From Thomasclavelia sp. (GTDB taxonomy: Bacteria > Bacillota_I > Bacilli_A > Erysipelotrichales > Coprobacillaceae), in NCBI GenBank assembly GCA_028749475.1, contig JAQVWN010000012.1, positions 1 to 56,707 on the forward strand: a stretch of DNA of 56,707 nucleotides. Direction: 5' to 3'. The notes beneath the pieces are model-generated. The model was not told the origin of the DNA, made no database searches, and worked only from the letters and a program-made list of their open reading frames with translations. Every line of letters starts with the position of its first letter. Within the stretch, counting starts at the first letter, position 1. The position numbers and the translations under genes are program-made. This document shows positions 2,458-52,250 of this stretch, piece by piece.

Positions 2458-3711
2458 TTAGTTTTTAGTAACTTGAGGAATGGTATTTGTTTTTAAACAG
2501 TATTCTTCAAATGTCCATCCTTTATCAGTTATCTCTTTCGCTATTTTTACACCAACATATCTAAAGTGCCATGGTTCATGTTCAATTCCAGTAATGTCAC
2601 TTTTATCTTCAGGGAATCGACAGATAAAGCCATATTTTGCAGCATTTTTCATAACCCATTTATATTCTGAAGTATCACCAAAGACATTCTTTTGTTTATT
2701 GACAACACTTTCAGAAGTTAAGTCAACACCAAGTCCAGTTTGATGTTCACTAGCTCCAGGAGTAGCGACATACTCAGCAGCATATTGTCCACCATATTTA
2801 GATTCAAAATCTTTATAGGTTTGTTGTTGAGTTTCATATGAACGATATCCACTATTTAAAACTAAGTTATATCCTTCTTCTTTAGCTGCTTTATACATCT
2901 TGACTAAAGCATCAGAAGCTACTTTTCGAAGTTTAGAGTTTTCACAATCCGGTGCAATCGGCATATCTGGTGTTACTAAATCTTTAGGTTCATAACTTTT
3001 TGGTAAATAGAAACCTTTTTTTACTAAAGCAAGTAAATCTGTTGAATTAGTAATTGTATATTTTTCATTAACTGTTTGACTAGCAGATCCTACTAAGAAT
3101 GGATAATTCACAATATTAACTGCATAGTTATAATTCTTTACTTCCTTATATTTTTCAATATAAGCTGACATATTACTAAGTTCATATCCTTTTACTTTAC
3201 GATATGGAGCAGTTTGTTTAGCTGTTAAACTATTATCAATAATTGATTGAAGATCATCTATTGATGAAGTTTTAATCATATCCCAAATCACTTTATCAGA
3301 ATAACCTAAAGCTTTAAGCTTTGGTTGTTGAGATGTAAATATTTTATCAACATTCTTAATTACTTTTTTAACTTTATATTTTGGATTTATTTCATAATAC
3401 TTTTCATATGCATTATAGAATTTAACCTTCTTACTATTATCTATCCATGTTTCAATATGATCTAATTTATCAAATGAATAAATAGTAGAAATATCATCAC
3501 CATCTAATTCTAAAATAGCATTAGCTTCATCTAATGAATATCCATCATACATTAAATGAATTCGATCACGATTAATGAAACCTACTAAACCAAGTACTAA
3601 TACAATACACGCCACTACTATTAATACAGTTCTATCTAATCTTAAACGAGGACGACTAGATTTACTGTTGTAATCACTATAATATCCATAATCCGTTTTT
3701 CTTTTAAACAT
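2458..3711 (-). CDS. D-alanyl-D-alanine carboxypeptidase, VanY/M15B family
   Basis: A membrane-anchored peptidase that trims the terminal D-alanine from peptidoglycan stem peptides. A short basic cytoplasmic tail precedes one membrane segment (about residues 28-46). After a long poorly conserved middle region, the M15B domain occupies roughly residues 255-400, with the zinc/catalytic motifs SEHQTGLGVDL (HxxxxxxD) and EHEPWHFRYVG (ExxH). LNSGYRSYETQQ is the usual substrate-side motif. The 417-residue length reflects the extra stalk region. It is a single-gene unit with its own terminator; the RBS and start at 3711 are clear. Substrate specificity (D,D- versus L,D-) is inferred from the family. 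Confidence 0.9.
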   Translation of the reverse strand: MFKRKTDYGYYSDYNSKSSRPRLRLDRTVLIVVACIVLVLGLVGFINRDRIHLMYDGYSLDEANAILELDGDDISTIYSFDKLDHIETWIDNSKKVKFYNAYEKYYEINPKYKVKKVIKNVDKIFTSQQPKLKALGYSDKVIWDMIKTSSIDDLQSIIDNSLTAKQTAPYRKVKGYELSNMSAYIEKYKEVKNYNYAVNIVNYPFLVGSASQTVNEKYTITNSTDLLALVKKGFYLPKSYEPKDLVTPDMPIAPDCENSKLRKVASDALVKMYKAAKEEGYNLVLNSGYRSYETQQQTYKDFESKYGGQYAAEYVATPGASEHQTGLGVDLTSESVVNKQKNVFGDTSEYKWVMKNAAKYGFICRFPEDKSDITGIEHEPWHFRYVGVKIAKEITDKGWTFEEYCLKTNTIPQVTKN

Positions 3712-41807: not shown

Positions 41808-42221
41808 ATGAACGACCAAACAATAAAGCTTAATACAATGATAAAGAAATACATGAAGATTAATAATCTAACGATGAAGGAATTGGGAGCATTGCTAGGT
41901 AAAAGCGAATCAGCTGTTTCTTATTGGATAAAAGGAACTAGCACCCCTAAAATCGGAGAGATACAAAAAATGGCTGATATGTTTAATTTAACAACTGATC
42001 AAATGATTTATGGAGATACATCCGATTACGAAAACCTAAGTTATTCAGTTGAAGCATATGTTGAAAATTCTAACGATTTTGAAAATGCTCTTAAAAAAAT
42101 AATGAGCGGTTCTAAAGAATTAAGAGACTTGGTGTTTTTAATTAGTGAGTTAAACGAGAAAGAAGTAGCTCAAGTAGTTAACTATATCAATTTTGTTTTA
42201 AGTCAACGAGATAAACAATAA
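41808..42221 (+). CDS. XRE-family repressor of the integrative element
   Basis: 137 residues: an N-terminal helix-turn-helix at about 8-65 (MKELGALLGKSESAVSYWIK) and a short C-terminal helical region. It has the size of phage or element repressors without a peptidase domain. It is the first plus-strand gene of the element, 28 bp ahead of the TPR gene, with an operator-like region upstream. Confidence 0.82.
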   Translation: MNDQTIKLNTMIKKYMKINNLTMKELGALLGKSESAVSYWIKGTSTPKIGEIQKMADMFNLTTDQMIYGDTSDYENLSYSVEAYVENSNDFENALKKIMSGSKELRDLVFLISELNEKEVAQVVNYINFVLSQRDKQ

Positions 42222-42249: not shown

Positions 42250-42966
42250 ATGGGATTTTTTAAACATCTAACAAATCGTAGCGCTACCGTTAAAGTAAAA
42301 CCTAAAATAGAGATTAATAATGATATAGAAATAGCTGATGCATTATTTTCTTCTTTAAATATTGGAGTAGGAATTGAAATTTCGAAAGAAGCACAAAAAA
42401 TACTTGCTACTTGCAATAGCAGACAAGATGTATTAGATCGTATTATAGAATTAGCTAGCAAACACGATACGCCTAGAAGTAGAAAACTATTAGCATTGTC
42501 ATATGCATGGAAAGGAGCCACTTATAGAAAAGAGGCTATAGAGGCTCTAAACAATTATATAAACAATGAATTAGATGAAAGTGAATTTAGAAATATGTTT
42601 ATTCCAGGAACTACTATCTTCGCAAGCATTTCAGAGGAAGCAAAGAATAGACATCTTTCTGATATGTATAATTTTTTAGGCAAATGTTACGAGGGAGAGT
42701 ATGAATTTGATAAAGCACTTGAAACTTTCCAAAAATCACATGAATTGGCACCAGAATATATACACAATGTATTAAATGTAGCAAGAGTATATTCTAAGTT
42801 GAATGACATCGACAAAAGCATAGAAATGCTAGAACAATACAAAAGAACAACATGGTACCTAAATGATGAGTCAAATAGAGAAGTAACAAATAATTATTTA
42901 TCCGAATATAAAGGCAAAAAAGAAAGAGGCTATGTATATAGACCTCGTAAAAGAAAAGAAATATAA
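42250..42966 (+). CDS. TPR-repeat protein of unknown function
   Basis: 238 residues. Tetratricopeptide-like helices run from about residue 125 to 215 (LGKCYEGEYEFDKALETFQK, NVLNVARVYSKLNDIDKSIE). The N-terminal half is helical without a known family, and the end is basic (PRKRKEI). RBS AGGAG. Cotranscribed with the XRE gene, so it may modulate or anchor the repressor; that is inference only. Confidence 0.75.
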   Translation: MGFFKHLTNRSATVKVKPKIEINNDIEIADALFSSLNIGVGIEISKEAQKILATCNSRQDVLDRIIELASKHDTPRSRKLLALSYAWKGATYRKEAIEALNNYINNELDESEFRNMFIPGTTIFASISEEAKNRHLSDMYNFLGKCYEGEYEFDKALETFQKSHELAPEYIHNVLNVARVYSKLNDIDKSIEMLEQYKRTTWYLNDESNREVTNNYLSEYKGKKERGYVYRPRKRKEI

Positions 42967-43062
42967 GGGAGAAGTGAAGTTATAAACGGTCTTAATTAGG
43001 GATAAAAAGGTAAAAAATAGGTAAAAAAGAGGAAAAAAGTTAACATTTTGTAAACGAAAAGG

Positions 43063-43091
43063 TTGAAAAAAAGAGTGAGCGGTGATATAAA
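43063..43091 (+). promoter_or_regulatory. Promoter of the structured RNA
   Basis: TTGAAA (43063-43068), a 17-bp spacer, and TATAAA (43086-43091). Transcription would start near 43098, just before the first hairpin of the RNA. Upstream, 42967-43062 is A-rich with no coding frame. Confidence 0.65.
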
Positions 43092-43097
43092 TATGGT

Positions 43098-43310
43098 GAA
43101 GATATTAGTAAAATCCTCTTGACTCGGATTCGTTTCTATTTCTTCGTTGTGCTTCGAGTGTGCTGGACACTTTCCCCAGAGGACTTGTCATTCTCGCACT
43201 AATCAGGGGATTTAGAAAATATGATTAGTTCCACGTGGCGTTGACAATAAGCCCACGAGTCCAGCGACAAAAGATCTGGTACCATTCTAGCAATAGGATG
43301 GTACTTTTTT
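43098..43310 (+). ncRNA. Structured noncoding RNA, about 213 nt, class not recognised
   Basis: It is bounded by a promoter and an intrinsic terminator, has no coding frame, and is less AT-rich than its surroundings. Visible helices are as follows. AATCC/GGATT is at 43112-43116 and 43126-43130. A 7-bp long-range helix GCTGGAC/GTCCAGC pairs 43162-43168 with 43259-43265. Inside it ACTAATCA/TGATTAGT (43198-43205 and 43222-43229) and CGTGGC/GCCCACG (43234-43239 and 43251-43257) form hairpins. The loop of the ACTAATCA hairpin carries GGGGA (43206-43210), able to pair with UCCCC (43173-43177) as a pseudoknot. It does not match 6S, SRP, RNase P, tmRNA or riboswitch cores I know. Confidence 0.65.
43279..43310 (+). 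terminator. Terminator of the structured RNA
   Basis: The stem GTACCATTCTA/TAGGATGGTAC (one wobble pair) with a GCAA tetraloop, then TTTTTT. It stands 21 bp before the start codon of the nuclease-like gene, so that gene depends on readthrough. Confidence 0.9.
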
Positions 43311-43330
43311 ACTAGTCGGGAAAGGTATAT

Positions 43331-44167
43331 ATGGGGAAAACTTTAGACAAAATAGATTTTATACCTTATCAGGAAGAATACTCTTTAGCTGATTTTGTAA
43401 TAAACTATATAAAAGTATTAGATAATAAACAATTTTCTATAAATGATGGCAAAGAGGCAATTAATATAGTCTTTCAAACAAGACATTACCCTCATATTAT
43501 AGGATTGCATCATTATCAAGATTCGCACTCACAAAATAAAACTATGAAAAATGTATTCAACTTAAAAGGAAATACAGCAATAAAATATATTTTACATAAC
43601 AAAATACAAATGAGCGATTTAGTAAACGCTTATGGTGGCACTATTTTTAATAAAGACATTTATAAATATAGAGTCCTTTCTTCACACCTTATTGAAAGGA
43701 TGATTTTAAATTCAAAGTTATATAAAGTGTGTGGCATAATAAAAAATAATGTAAAAGCAGATTATATACTTGTTTCTAATATTGACCAAATTAAATTTTG
43801 TCTTTGCTTGAAAATAGATAATAAATTAAACAGAGATGGTCATACTTATTGTTGCGTTTCAAATTTAATAAATGATAGAGATGTTAACGGAGCCATCAAA
43901 GATGGCAGACTACAAGAAATAAACATTAACAATATTGTTAAAAAAGACTTCAAGACAAAAAGAATAATTTATGCTAAAACTTGCAATTGTATTTTTGATA
44001 AGCCTAACCCTGGTATCTCCATCAATAAAGTGTCTGAGGCATGTGTTATAGAAGTAATTGAATTAGATGGAAATTGTGTAGCTAAAATAATTGATGAAGA
44101 TTGTTACGAGATAAAGTGCTATTTTTATGATAAAAATACAAAAAGAATAATTAATAAATATCTTTAG
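43331..44167 (+). CDS. PBECR4-like protein (putative phage-type nuclease domain)
   Basis: 278 residues. The segment INIVFQTRHYPHIIGLHHYQ followed by KNVFNLKGNTAIKYILHNK resembles the start of PBECR-type (Barnase-EndoU-ColicinE5/D-RelE fold) domains, which have a HLxGL-like histidine motif. A second strand-rich part follows (IIYAKTCNCIFDKPNPG). The last 60 residues look like an added beta domain. I recognise this only by pattern and am not sure. RBS AAAGG. Its only upstream signal is the RNA terminator, an arrangement like type III toxin-antitoxin loci. Confidence 0.5.
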   Translation: MGKTLDKIDFIPYQEEYSLADFVINYIKVLDNKQFSINDGKEAINIVFQTRHYPHIIGLHHYQDSHSQNKTMKNVFNLKGNTAIKYILHNKIQMSDLVNAYGGTIFNKDIYKYRVLSSHLIERMILNSKLYKVCGIIKNNVKADYILVSNIDQIKFCLCLKIDNKLNRDGHTYCCVSNLINDRDVNGAIKDGRLQEININNIVKKDFKTKRIIYAKTCNCIFDKPNPGISINKVSEACVIEVIELDGNCVAKIIDEDCYEIKCYFYDKNTKRIINKYL

Positions 44168-44322: not shown

Positions 44323-45381
44323 ATGGCAGCATATAAAGATATTAAAAGAAATACATGGTATTGTGATGTAAAGTACAAAAATGCTTTAGGAGAGTGGAAG
44401 CATCACACAAAGAGAGGCTTCTTAACTAAACGTGAAGCATTAAACTATGAAGCGTATTTCTTAACTAACGATAAAAAGAGTACATCTAATATGACTCTTG
44501 ATGAATTATTTGATAGCTTTAATGATTATCAAAAATTAAGAGTTAAACCTTCAACTTATTTAACTGACAAACGAAGATACTTAAAACATGTATCTCCATA
44601 TTTCGGATCTAAGAGACTTTCTACTATTAAACCTATAGATATAAGTAAATGGATAAAAGAACTTTCTAAGAGTTTTAAACCTATTTACTGCAATAGTATT
44701 TTGTCAACGCTTAAAAAACTAGTTAATTATTCTAATAAGGTGCTTGGATATACATATAACCCAGCGACTAATATATCACCATTAAAAAATGAGAAACGAA
44801 TAGCGGAAATTAATATATGGACTCCTGATGAATTTTCTAAGTTTTATAATTCTTTAGATAGCCAAAAGAAAAAAGTCCTATTTAGGACTCTATATTTTAC
44901 TGGTATGAGAAAAGGCGAATTATTAGCTTTAACTTGGAAAGATTTTAAAAATGGTTCATTGATCATTAATAAAGGATATTCATATGCAAATGGTGGAGTA
45001 TCAACTCCAAAAACAAACAATAGTTATAGAACTGTTTTACTGGATAATACAACTAATAATATGTTGGATGATTATCACAATTACTGTATGAAGTTAGATG
45101 GTTATAGTGACTCATTTTATATATTCGGTGAACAATTACCCCTACCACCGGAAACTATTCGTAGATGGCTAAAAAAAGGTATAAAAGAGAGTGGAGTTAA
45201 AGACATAAGATTACACGATTTTAGGCATAGTCATGTTTCTATGTTAATCAATGAGGGTATGCCAGTAATTGCTATAGCTGGGCGCATAGGAGATACTACT
45301 TCAACAGTCCTGGATGTGTATAGTCATTTAATGAATAAATCTAGTCAAGAAGTTGTTGATTTTCTTAATAAACTTGACTAA
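44323..45381 (+). CDS. Tyrosine recombinase (site-specific integrase)
   Basis: 352 residues: an N-terminal arm-binding segment (YKDIKRNTWYCDVKYKN), a SAM-like core-binding domain (about 60-160), and the catalytic domain with Arg in FTGMRKGELLALTW, HxxR in RLHDFRHSHVSML, and the final His/Tyr in STVLDVYSHL. It is a Tn916/phage-type integrase. RBS TTAGGAGG. It ends 75 bp from the 3' end of tRNA-Leu, its presumed target. Confidence 0.92.
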   Translation: MAAYKDIKRNTWYCDVKYKNALGEWKHHTKRGFLTKREALNYEAYFLTNDKKSTSNMTLDELFDSFNDYQKLRVKPSTYLTDKRRYLKHVSPYFGSKRLSTIKPIDISKWIKELSKSFKPIYCNSILSTLKKLVNYSNKVLGYTYNPATNISPLKNEKRIAEINIWTPDEFSKFYNSLDSQKKKVLFRTLYFTGMRKGELLALTWKDFKNGSLIINKGYSYANGGVSTPKTNNSYRTVLLDNTTNNMLDDYHNYCMKLDGYSDSFYIFGEQLPLPPETIRRWLKKGIKESGVKDIRLHDFRHSHVSMLINEGMPVIAIAGRIGDTTSTVLDVYSHLMNKSSQEVVDFLNKLD

Positions 45382-45455: not shown

Positions 45456-45539
45456 TGGTGCGGGTAACAGGAATCGAACCTGCACGTCAAGGACACTAGA
45501 TCCTAAGTCTAGCGCGTCTGCCAGTTCCGCCATACCCGC
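45456..45539 (-). tRNA. tRNA-Leu (UAG)
   Basis: Cloverleaf with 7-bp acceptor GCGGGTA/TACCCGC, a long variable arm as expected for Leu, anticodon loop CTTAGGA (TAG), T-loop GGTTCGATTCC and encoded ACCA. Its 3' end is the attachment site of the integrative element. Confidence 0.95.
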
Positions 45540-49101: not shown

Positions 49102-49131
49102 AAAAGGAGATTTCAATGAAATCTCCTTTTT
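49101..49131. terminator. Bidirectional terminator
   Basis: The stem AAAAAGGAGATTTCA/TGAAATCTCCTTTTT separates the convergent PAP2 and LCP genes. Confidence 0.9.
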
Positions 49132-50626
49132 ATTCTTTAATATCTGATTTAGTTATTTTATTACCATCTTCAATTTTATCAATTAAACTCTTAATACTAT
49201 TTAAACTCTTGCTATCTGGTTTTAATGTATAAACATTTTGACCAGGCATTGAATATGTTTTAGTTGATTTAACCCCTGTACCAGTCAATTGAACGTTATA
49301 CATTGACCATTTTATATTTTCATCTAATTGCATTTGAATTAAAGACTTAATATCTGATGAAGACATATTTGTTTCAAATGATCCTTCTACTGCCGTTAAG
49401 ATGTTTTCATAATTAGTAATAATCTTAGTAGAAATACATTTTTTAATTAAAGCTTTAAGTAAAAGTTGTTGGTTTTTACCACGATCAAAATCACCATTAG
49501 GTAATGCATATCTTTCTCTTACAAAACATAAAGCTTTTTCACCATTCATCTTATTTTCACCTTTTACTATTTTATAATTACCATGTCTGGTAGTAAAAGC
49601 ATATGGTGAATTAATTGTTATTCCATCAACGGCATCAACTATATCAGTAATACCTTGGAAATTAGTTTTGGCATAATAGTTAATCTTTGTATCTAAGAAA
49701 TCTTCCATGGTAGATATTGTTTCATTAACTCCAAAGTTAGCTGAATGAGTTAACTTATCCATTTTACCATTACGATGAAGCTTAACTTGCGTATCCCTAG
49801 GAACAGAAACCAATAGTATTTGATGGGTATTTGGATTCACACATGCAAGTAAATTAACATCTGTTCTAGATACAGTTGATACTGACCCATAGGTATCTAA
49901 ACCAGTTAAATAAACAATAAATGGTTTAGATGTAACATCAGTGCTAGTAGTTACTGAAGTAACTGATTCCACAAATTCTTTTTTATAGATAATTCTTGTT
50001 TCACCAGTAAAATCTTCATGATTAGCTTCTAGGTTAGATAAATATGATTGATCAGCAACTATGGCATCGACATCACCATCATATAAACTATCAGCTAACT
50101 TAGTGTAATTACTTTTAACTACGTAATCTATTCCTTTTGTTTTAGTAGATAAAATATCCTTTACTTTAGAAATATTCTTAGTTGATTTTTTAGAATCATA
50201 ACCAACCTTTTTATTCTTTAAATCATTAACACTTGTAATATCACTATCATTTAAAACATAACAAGCAATAACCCTTGTTTGAGTTTCACTACCAGAAATA
50301 TTAGAAATAAAACTATCTCCCCTATTAACATAAATTAATGATGTTAAAACCATAAAGATACTTAAAACAATACATAGTAGTTTACTAAATACATATAAGC
50401 CACCTTTGTGCTTTTTCTTTTTTCTTTTATTACCAACCTGCATTAATTTGCTTACCAGCAACACTAAAATAAGTAGTATTACTGCTAATACTATAAAATA
50501 CTTCATTGGTAATAAATTTAAACGATATACAAATACTAATAAAAATATACTCGCTAATAATTGAATTAAAGATAATATTCTCCTTGAAAATATTTTCCCC
50601 ATGACTCCCTTTTTTTTCTTTGCCAA
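49130..50626 (-). CDS. LytR-CpsA-Psr (LCP) family protein with solute-binding-like insert
   Basis: About 498 residues from a TTG start at 50626 (MAKKKKG), eight bases after GAGG and matching the paralogue's MAKK start. A GTG at 50635 sits on the RBS. Three hydrophobic segments occupy the first 110 residues. A module at about 130-215 (SVNDLKNKKVGYDSKKSTK, LADSLYDGDVDAIVADQSYL) looks like half of a periplasmic solute-binding fold. The LCP domain follows at about 240-470 with VSVPRDTQVKL and CFVRERYALPNGDFDRGKNQ. LCP enzymes attach anionic glycopolymers to peptidoglycan. Confidence 0.88.
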   Translation of the reverse strand: MAKKKKGVMGKIFSRRILSLIQLLASIFLLVFVYRLNLLPMKYFIVLAVILLILVLLVSKLMQVGNKRKKKKHKGGLYVFSKLLCIVLSIFMVLTSLIYVNRGDSFISNISGSETQTRVIACYVLNDSDITSVNDLKNKKVGYDSKKSTKNISKVKDILSTKTKGIDYVVKSNYTKLADSLYDGDVDAIVADQSYLSNLEANHEDFTGETRIIYKKEFVESVTSVTTSTDVTSKPFIVYLTGLDTYGSVSTVSRTDVNLLACVNPNTHQILLVSVPRDTQVKLHRNGKMDKLTHSANFGVNETISTMEDFLDTKINYYAKTNFQGITDIVDAVDGITINSPYAFTTRHGNYKIVKGENKMNGEKALCFVRERYALPNGDFDRGKNQQLLLKALIKKCISTKIITNYENILTAVEGSFETNMSSSDIKSLIQMQLDENIKWSMYNVQLTGTGVKSTKTYSMPGQNVYTLKPDSKSLNSIKSLIDKIEDGNKITKSDIKE

Positions 50627-50669
50627 TCTAAACACCTCGCATAAAAATTATAACATTCCTATATTTATA

Positions 50670-50699
50670 AAAAAAGGAGAATAGATAATCTATTCTCCT
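50670..50699 (-). terminator. Terminator of the second LCP gene
   Basis: The stem AGGAGAATAGA/TCTATTCTCCT followed on the minus strand by a T run, between the two tandem LCP genes. Confidence 0.85.
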
Positions 50700-50705
50700 G
50701 AATCA

Positions 50706-52250
50706 TTACTCATCTGAATCATTTGAACTACTTGAATCACTATTTGTATATGTTCCAGCATTCTTAACATCAGCCTTAGTAACTTTTTCACCTTTTTCAA
50801 CTTTATCAATTAAGCTAATTACTTTTTTGACTTGTGATTTATATGGTTTCATTACATAAATGCTAGTACCAGACATTGAATATGTCTCACTTGTACGATA
50901 ACCTTCACCTTGAATTTGAACATTATTAAATGTCCATGCTGAACCATCATTAAGTTGCATTTGAATTAATGATTTAATCTCACTAGAAGACATATCTGTT
51001 TGGAATGAACCTTCAACAGCACTTAAAATATTTTCATAATTATTAAGTATTGCTGGTGACATTGCTTTTTCAAGTAATGCTTTAAGAAGTTTTTGTTGGT
51101 TCTTACCACGATCAAAGTCTCCGTTTGGAAGATTATATCTTTCTCTTACGAAACATAATGCTTTATCGCCATCCATTTCGTTTTCACCTTTTACAATACT
51201 ATAATTACCATGTCTAGTAGTAAAAGCAACATCGGACTTAACGGTAATTCCTCCCATAGCATCTACTATATTTGTGATACCTTGGAAGTTTGTTTTTGCA
51301 TAATAGTTGATTTTAACATTTAAGAAATCTTCTATTGTATTGATTGTTTCATCTGTACCATAGATACCAGTATGAGTAAGCTTATCCATCTTACCATTCT
51401 TATGTAAGTTAATTTGGGTATCTCTTGGAATAGAAACCATTAATACTTGTCTTGTTTTAGGATTAACTGTAACAATTAAGTTAACATCAGATCTAGATAC
51501 TGTTGATACATCACCGTAAGTATCAAGTCCAGTAATATATACTGAAAATGCATTTTCAGTTACATCTGTTCTAGCAGTAGTAGATGTAGTCTTTTTAGCA
51601 AATGAATAAGATTTAACTACTCTAGTTTCTTCATCAAATCCTTCATGATTTGTTTCAAGCATTGATCGATATTGTTCACCAACAACTATTGCATCAACAT
51701 CGCCATTATATAAACTATCAGCAAGTTTGGCATAAGTATCTACTTTAGTATACTTTTGTTCACCAATATCTTCTTCTAATTTACCTAAACCTTTAGTTAA
51801 AACTGTAGTTTCTTTTTCATAAGAAACTCCAAATTTTTTACCATCTAGTTTCTTTAAAGTAGCGTTTTTGTATTTACCACTATTTAATACAATAACTGAT
51901 ACAACATATTTTTGAGAACCATCACCTGTAACGTTACTAAAGAAACTATTTGCTCTAGTTACATAAGGTGTAGCTACTAATAACATAATTGATACTAAGA
52001 TTGATAATATCTTAGTTATAATTGCTCTCTTTGTGGTTTTTCCTTGTCTTTTTTCTTTCTTCTTACCTGATTGAATAATTCCAAAGAAGATAAGAATTAA
52101 TGCAACTAATATTCCACCAACTGCAATTAAGTATTTAGTTGGTAGTATATTTAATTGATATACAAAATATACAAAGAATATTGATACTAATAATTCAAGT
52201 CCTAATATTAAGGCTCTTGATGTTAATACCTTCATAATTTTCTTAGCCAT
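50706..52250 (-). CDS. LytR-CpsA-Psr (LCP) family protein, tandem paralogue
   Basis: 514 residues, the same architecture as its neighbour: membrane-embedded N-terminus, solute-binding-like module (LKKLDGKKFGVSYEKE, LADSLYNGDVDAIVVGEQY), then the LCP catalytic domain (VSIPRDTQINLHKNGKMD, CFVRERYNLPNGDFDRGKNQ). The C-terminus ends in a Ser/Asn/Asp-rich tail. RBS GGAGG. The two proteins are clearly duplicates that have diverged. Confidence 0.9.
   Translation of the reverse strand: MAKKIMKVLTSRALILGLELLVSIFFVYFVYQLNILPTKYLIAVGGILVALILIFFGIIQSGKKKEKRQGKTTKRAIITKILSILVSIMLLVATPYVTRANSFFSNVTGDGSQKYVVSVIVLNSGKYKNATLKKLDGKKFGVSYEKETTVLTKGLGKLEEDIGEQKYTKVDTYAKLADSLYNGDVDAIVVGEQYRSMLETNHEGFDEETRVVKSYSFAKKTTSTTARTDVTENAFSVYITGLDTYGDVSTVSRSDVNLIVTVNPKTRQVLMVSIPRDTQINLHKNGKMDKLTHTGIYGTDETINTIEDFLNVKINYYAKTNFQGITNIVDAMGGITVKSDVAFTTRHGNYSIVKGENEMDGDKALCFVRERYNLPNGDFDRGKNQQKLLKALLEKAMSPAILNNYENILSAVEGSFQTDMSSSEIKSLIQMQLNDGSAWTFNNVQIQGEGYRTSETYSMSGTSIYVMKPYKSQVKKVISLIDKVEKGEKVTKADVKNAGTYTNSDSSSSNDSDE

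Follow-up and report, generated by a model that had tools for sequence, protein, structure and literature searches.

What does a GC-rich, structured and apparently non-coding stretch do when it lies directly before the gene of a protein that annotation resources do not recognise? The question is raised by a locus of Thomasclavelia sp., located in the 56,707 nt stretch of contig JAQVWN010000012.1 that we analysed and that, as a whole, we call the window. The candidate RNA covers positions 43098 to 43312, on the plus strand like the other features of the locus. It is preceded by a sigma-A-type promoter (43063-43091) in which TTGAAA (43063-43068) and TATAAA (43086-43091) are separated by a 17 nt spacer, exactly as an earlier note on this DNA had described it, and transcription would be expected to start at about position 43098. 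This promoter agrees with the consensus at 10 of 12 positions, but matches of this quality are not rare (n = 29 on the plus strand of the 56.7 kb window, about one per 2 kb by chance), so that it has no rarity value here. The same note had claimed the absence of a reading frame and an elevated G+C content, and we found both: the longest open frame, counted stop to stop across all frames of 43041-43330, has about 49 codons, and the GC content of the RNA stretch is 44%, compared with 29.5% in the window and 26-30% in the two flanking genes. An intrinsic terminator (43278-43309), with a stem formed by 43278-43289 and 43294-43305, the GNRA-type loop GCAA that had been announced and a T run, separates the RNA from the downstream gene. 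Only 21 nt lie between the end of this terminator and the ATG at 43331, too little space for a second promoter. The arrangement is that of type III toxin-antitoxin systems, namely an RNA gene and a putative toxin gene with an intrinsic terminator between them, presumably transcribed together.

When 43098-43312 was folded with the terminator included, we obtained -58.8 kcal/mol (z = -2.53), and 4 of 200 shuffled sequences folded equally well. A shifted stretch of 220 nt gave a z of just -1.7, and folding energy alone is therefore weak evidence. The 7 bp long-range helix that closes the structure, described earlier and recovered here (GCUGGAC 43162-43168 with GUCCAGC 43259-43265), has a pair probability of about 0.99, and hairpin P3 (43234-43257; CGUGG with CCACG) one of about 0.97. 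Hairpin P2 (43199-43228) consists of the stem strands CUAAUCA and UGAUUAG around the loop region GGGGAUUUAGAAAAUA, and its stem reaches a pair probability of about 0.2 when the pseudoknot is left out of the fold. The proposed pseudoknot would join UCCCC (43173-43177) to GGGGA (43206-43210) in the P2 loop. Both strands are present as the earlier note had it, and a hairpin of at least 7 bp whose loop can pair within the 60 nt upstream of it (five pairs, at least four of them GC) arose in 9 of 3000 dinucleotide shuffles; the pseudoknot itself is plausible but unproven, a sequence-level candidate for which no close homologue was found that could reveal covariation. Taken alone, the window copy is only moderately convincing as an RNA gene. 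It might simply be an ordinary AT-rich leader that carries the terminator of the upstream transcription unit and helices formed at random, and a fold energy that is moderately unusual at best, together with a promoter match of a common kind, would suit such an explanation; the GC island and the scarcity of the loop pairing among shuffles would not. The description given in the earlier note is accurate, yet by itself it is no proof of an RNA gene, and it is the context of the downstream gene that decides.

The note had placed the RNA in no recognised class, which held insofar as Rfam is concerned. Over the whole window, Rfam returned tRNAs only, with neither drum (RF02958) nor the abiF motif (RF03085), and in the RNA region there was no match at gathering thresholds, E values up to 10 yielding just implausible eukaryotic or off-strand matches. 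Beyond Rfam, the RNA is better seen as belonging to a recognisable kind, a recurrent module made of an RNA, a terminator and a gene of the PBECR4 family. The collection of homologues that had been proposed produced no detectable homologue of the window RNA itself in the collections searched; neither the RNA nor the protein has close relatives in its own genome, genus or family, or in the viral contigs, genome contigs and phages. The 33 nt matches in Bacillus phages, located in amidase/endolysin genes, were dismissed as chance. The suggestion to look upstream of PBECR-like genes, on the other hand, proved right.

The gene downstream (43331-44167) encodes a divergent PBECR4-like predicted RNase of 278 amino acids, the proposed toxin. 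The lead to PBECR4 came from a tblastn search of plasmids, in which a Streptococcus protein annotated as PBECR4 was the one weak match (E = 0.01). The protein is below detection in Pfam, PF18813 included, and is unrecognised by PADLOC, PHROGs and NCBIfam. In profile comparisons with hhalign, we obtained an E value of 8e-6 (probability 84%) against a profile of 18 PBECR4 proteins, and of 1.2e-4 against a close PBECR4 sub-family that keeps the motif PHLLGL(H/Q)Y, where the window protein has PHIIGLHH. The histidine of the HxxG motif and its glycine (H55 and G58) are invariant in the PBECR4 alignments, the window protein included. No Pfam match of the ToxN, CptN or TenpN type was found for the window protein at E <= 1, and the PBECR4 profile matched no PDB sequence. 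The AlphaFold model of the window protein alone was unusable (pLDDT 33). When a homologue from a phage was modelled (L090; pLDDT 61), the top Foldseek match was RegB, below significance, and the best rows in VIA were RelE-type and BrnT toxins at non-significant Z scores of 3.2-3.5, with HigB also high; ToxN and CptN were absent among the structure matches listed for this model, which decides nothing. This ranking is consistent with a BECR fold for PBECR4 but is no proof of it. The PBECR domains of polyvalent proteins from phages and conjugative elements, which also occur in solo proteins, have been predicted to be RNases with a BECR fold, in a text that makes no mention of noncoding RNA (PMC5512222). 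The window protein shares with PF18813 the HxxG motif and the overall N-terminal domain, but differs from that description in having an RNA upstream.

A small integrative element likely carries both the RNA and the nuclease gene. A tyrosine integrase (44323-45381; PF00589, PF14659 and PF14657) follows the nuclease gene and adjoins a tRNA-Leu (45456-45539, minus strand; ARAGORN) that is part of a tRNA cluster. The integrative element of the earlier note is supported by the integrase beside the tRNA but not by attachment sites: we looked for att repeats and found none, and the ends of the element were not located. Directly upstream of the RNA are genes for an HTH_3 regulator (41808-42221) and a TPR protein (42250-42966), both assigned by Pfam and probably on the same element, which would measure about 3.7 kb up to the integrase. 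Elsewhere in the window (49130-52250, minus strand), two adjacent and clearly paralogous proteins of 501 and 514 amino acids are encoded, which resemble members of the LytR-CpsA-Psr family.

A search for PF18813 across the order, with 196 genomes of which 21 contained a match, was extended to class and phylum samples, and we gathered related PBECR4 proteins from plasmids, phages and viral contigs. Most of the stand-alone PBECR4 genes examined, in Bacillota, Fusobacterium plasmids and phages, have the same layout, in which a site resembling a promoter leads into about 120-250 nt of GC-rich sequence, followed by a terminator, a ribosome binding site (RBS) and the PBECR4 gene. It is absent at long polyvalent-like PBECR4 proteins (L037-L041) and at a few others (L022, L024). 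With a fixed rule, the 110 nt or so that precede the start contained a terminator in 30 of 45 PBECR4 genes; among controls, which were genes from 17 other stretches and the window, the figure was 51 of 335 (15%). The PBECR4 start codons were placed by eye, while the controls are simple ORF calls. Restricting the controls to those with an upstream gap of at least 200 nt left a terminator in 17 of 97, and after removal of near-duplicates the terminator was present at 24 of 37 PBECR4 loci (Fisher p = 3e-7 against this stricter control). The true fraction is higher, since the rule overlooks some AT-rich terminators that are seen by eye (e.g. at L010, L018 and L025). The stretches upstream of PBECR4 genes also fold better than those of controls (median z of -2.4 versus -1.0, Mann-Whitney p = 1e-4) and are richer in GC (37% versus 29%). 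An architecture shared with PBECR4 genes so far above the controls makes the random-leader explanation of the window RNA very improbable. A plasmid of Fusobacterium hwasookii (NZ_CP013332.1) carries a head-to-tail pair of RNA-PBECR4 units (L048, 4983-6934) and, further along, zeta toxin genes as well as an Abi family gene.

The RNAs upstream of PBECR4 genes belong to several unrelated classes. Tandem repeats characterise the RNAs of eight loci (L051, L054, L100, L031, L005, L017, L012 and L058), with two repeats of about 42-55 nt in several sister loci and of 78 nt in one; on an Enterococcus faecium plasmid (L051), the two 55 nt repeats are 93% identical. In an Enterococcus phage or contig (L058), three copies of RatA (RF01776, a type I antitoxin RNA; 2098-2185, 3175-3260 and 3615-3700) flank the repeat-type RNA-PBECR4 module. 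Another class is the drum RNA (RF02958), a structured small RNA; each of its three above-threshold matches (L014, 898-1005, minus strand; L032, 2029-2134, minus strand; L033, 184-295, plus strand) is immediately followed by a PBECR4 gene. Because drum was defined in Rfam without regard to PBECR4, this pairing counts in favour of the module. The window RNA shares this position, but does not match the drum model. Searches that started from drum, in 344 genomes of the phylum and in three families or genera, gave no further above-threshold copy. A drum-like match of 31 bits (L081) sits among ordinary genes and was rejected as chance. At a contig end (L102, 1501-1780), a drum-like RNA of 37 bits, below threshold, has its own terminator and is followed by the apparent start of a second RNA.

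A further class, for which we built the covariance model R1, occurs in Erysipelotrichaceae MAGs and Fusobacterium plasmids and is made up of a CCC strand, a hairpin with a GGGG...GAAAUA loop, a hairpin ACCG...CGGU and a terminator. Covariation in the stems of this class is strong: both partners change in 9 of 12 pairs, and 91% of cells are paired versus 74% when shuffled, a signal that is destroyed by sliding the pairing partners. Like this class, the window RNA combines a CCC strand, a loop of the same type in P2, a second hairpin, a terminator and PBECR4, but its 5′ part is longer and it is closed by the long-range helix. The R1 model finds an in-register match at 43189-43246 that is not significant (8.2 bits, E = 4.4 for the window), and membership was not accepted on that account; the window RNA may be a divergent relative of the GGGG-loop class, and we do not treat it as a member.

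All matches of the R1 model lie next to intact PBECR4 genes or to lost or broken ones. One locus (L082) has, over 196 nt, exactly the RNA sequence of another (L025), while its PBECR4 toxin breaks off within the first few codons; in L030 the GGGG-loop RNA is kept beside a PBECR4 fragment, and in L088 a copy is followed directly by another RNA unit. The GGGG-loop RNA copies are thus intact in L082, L030 and L088 (genome G060) in spite of a truncated, degenerate or missing PBECR4. That these three loci have retained the RNA after losing the toxin fits a harmful protein and a harmless RNA, and is what an antitoxin role predicts.

The phage class (L090-L099) speaks to another possibility. Identity among its proteins drops to 65%, while the core of the RNA and the terminator hardly change from one phage to the next, and in the aligned copies we noticed no variable segment that resembles a spacer. 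This is not what would be expected of a trans-acting small RNA, guide or cofactor whose role is to lead the PBECR4 protein to targets and not to inhibit it. Stand-alone RNase domains usually want restraint and not guidance, which we also counted against such a role. It is true that a conserved pairing of RNA and nuclease is also the logic of guide systems, and that AbiF has been discussed as an ancestor of Cas13 (PMC12373285), but of the explanations considered we find guidance the least probable.

How the RNA could restrain the nuclease is best illustrated by AbiF and RCd22 of Clostridioides difficile phi027 (RF03085), where a SigA promoter is followed by a single structured ncRNA of about 130 nt, a terminator, an RBS and the toxin gene (PMC12373285). 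RCd22 is an experimentally demonstrated RNA antitoxin that acts both in cis, by limiting read-through, and in trans, by binding and neutralising AbiF (PMC12373285). The window shows the same order of parts, with a single structured RNA and its terminator behind one promoter and then, after an RBS, the gene of the proposed toxin, but AbiF is a HEPN/Cas13-ancestor protein whereas the toxin candidate here is PBECR4, and the Rfam scan reported no abiF motif in the window. The likeness is double-edged, for a cis-acting attenuator, that is a leader which folds, terminates and keeps the nuclease mRNA low, perhaps with riboswitch-like sensing and without any role as a separate molecule, would also place its terminator immediately before the RBS behind one promoter, and RCd22 likewise lowers abiF mRNA through premature termination (PMC12373285). 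However, the RNAs stay intact where the nuclease has been lost or broken, and their classes are wholly different between related nucleases, some with tandem repeats, which would be odd for a ligand sensor. In addition, no alternative antiterminator helix was noticed, without a systematic search. We consider attenuation alone unlikely.

The type III systems ToxIN, CptIN and TenpIN also come close to this locus. By published criteria, such systems are recognised by tandem repeats with a terminator and the gene of an RNase behind them, and the repeats are the hallmark of ToxI and CptI (PMC5086642). Like these systems, the window locus has an RNA gene, a terminator and the gene of a predicted RNase toxin, presumably in one operon; their antitoxins are pseudoknotted, for which the window RNA offers a candidate pairing, and several sister PBECR4 loci share the tandem repeats. 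The window RNA differs in being non-repetitive, with no direct repeats of at least 16 nt in 43098-43312, and the window protein lies outside the ToxN families, being a PBECR4 with a predicted BECR fold.

In the reading that we favour, and that we regard as probable, 43098-43312 encodes the antitoxin RNA for a PBECR4 toxin, and the two form a type III-like toxin-antitoxin system carried on the small integrative element. For this PBECR4-type nuclease we propose the mechanism of AbiF and RCd22, because it is the closest experimental precedent. A single promoter would serve both the RNA and the nuclease gene; most transcripts would end at the terminator and provide many copies of the RNA, while a minority would read through and yield the nuclease mRNA. 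Once folded, with the long-range helix closing it and probably with the pseudoknot formed, the RNA would bind the nuclease and keep it inactive. Upon loss of the element or shut-off of the host by a phage, the RNA would fall first, and the nuclease thereby freed would cut cellular or phage RNA. The RNase activity, the toxicity, the binding of RNA and the physiological trigger are all putative attributes of the PBECR4 module, which we infer, as we do the antitoxin role of the window RNA, from the layout and its recurrence. The module would work like a type III toxin-antitoxin system; what is new is the different toxin family and, in the window copy, the non-repetitive RNA. The open-access collection that we searched, which is not the whole literature, contains no mention of PBECR4, never brings PBECR and type III toxin-antitoxin systems together, and yielded no RNA antitoxin for a BECR toxin, the one match being a type II review.

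Beyond this locus, we lean towards the view that PBECR4 RNases are toxins under RNA control, forming a large group that has so far escaped recognition and extends over Bacillota and Fusobacteriota as well as the phages and plasmids of both. A single nuclease family would here be combined with many unrelated antitoxin folds, either repetitive or single; drum would be one of them and the window RNA, with a new fold, another. If this is true, a toxin family with a predicted BECR fold would join the RNA-antitoxin systems, and a testable function would be suggested for the orphan drum RNA. The repeated pairing of one nuclease family with unrelated RNA folds would then be a natural experiment in the inhibition of RNases by RNA. 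It would also suggest how cells stay safe from stand-alone PBECR4 domains, which are known from the conflict proteins of phages and conjugative elements.
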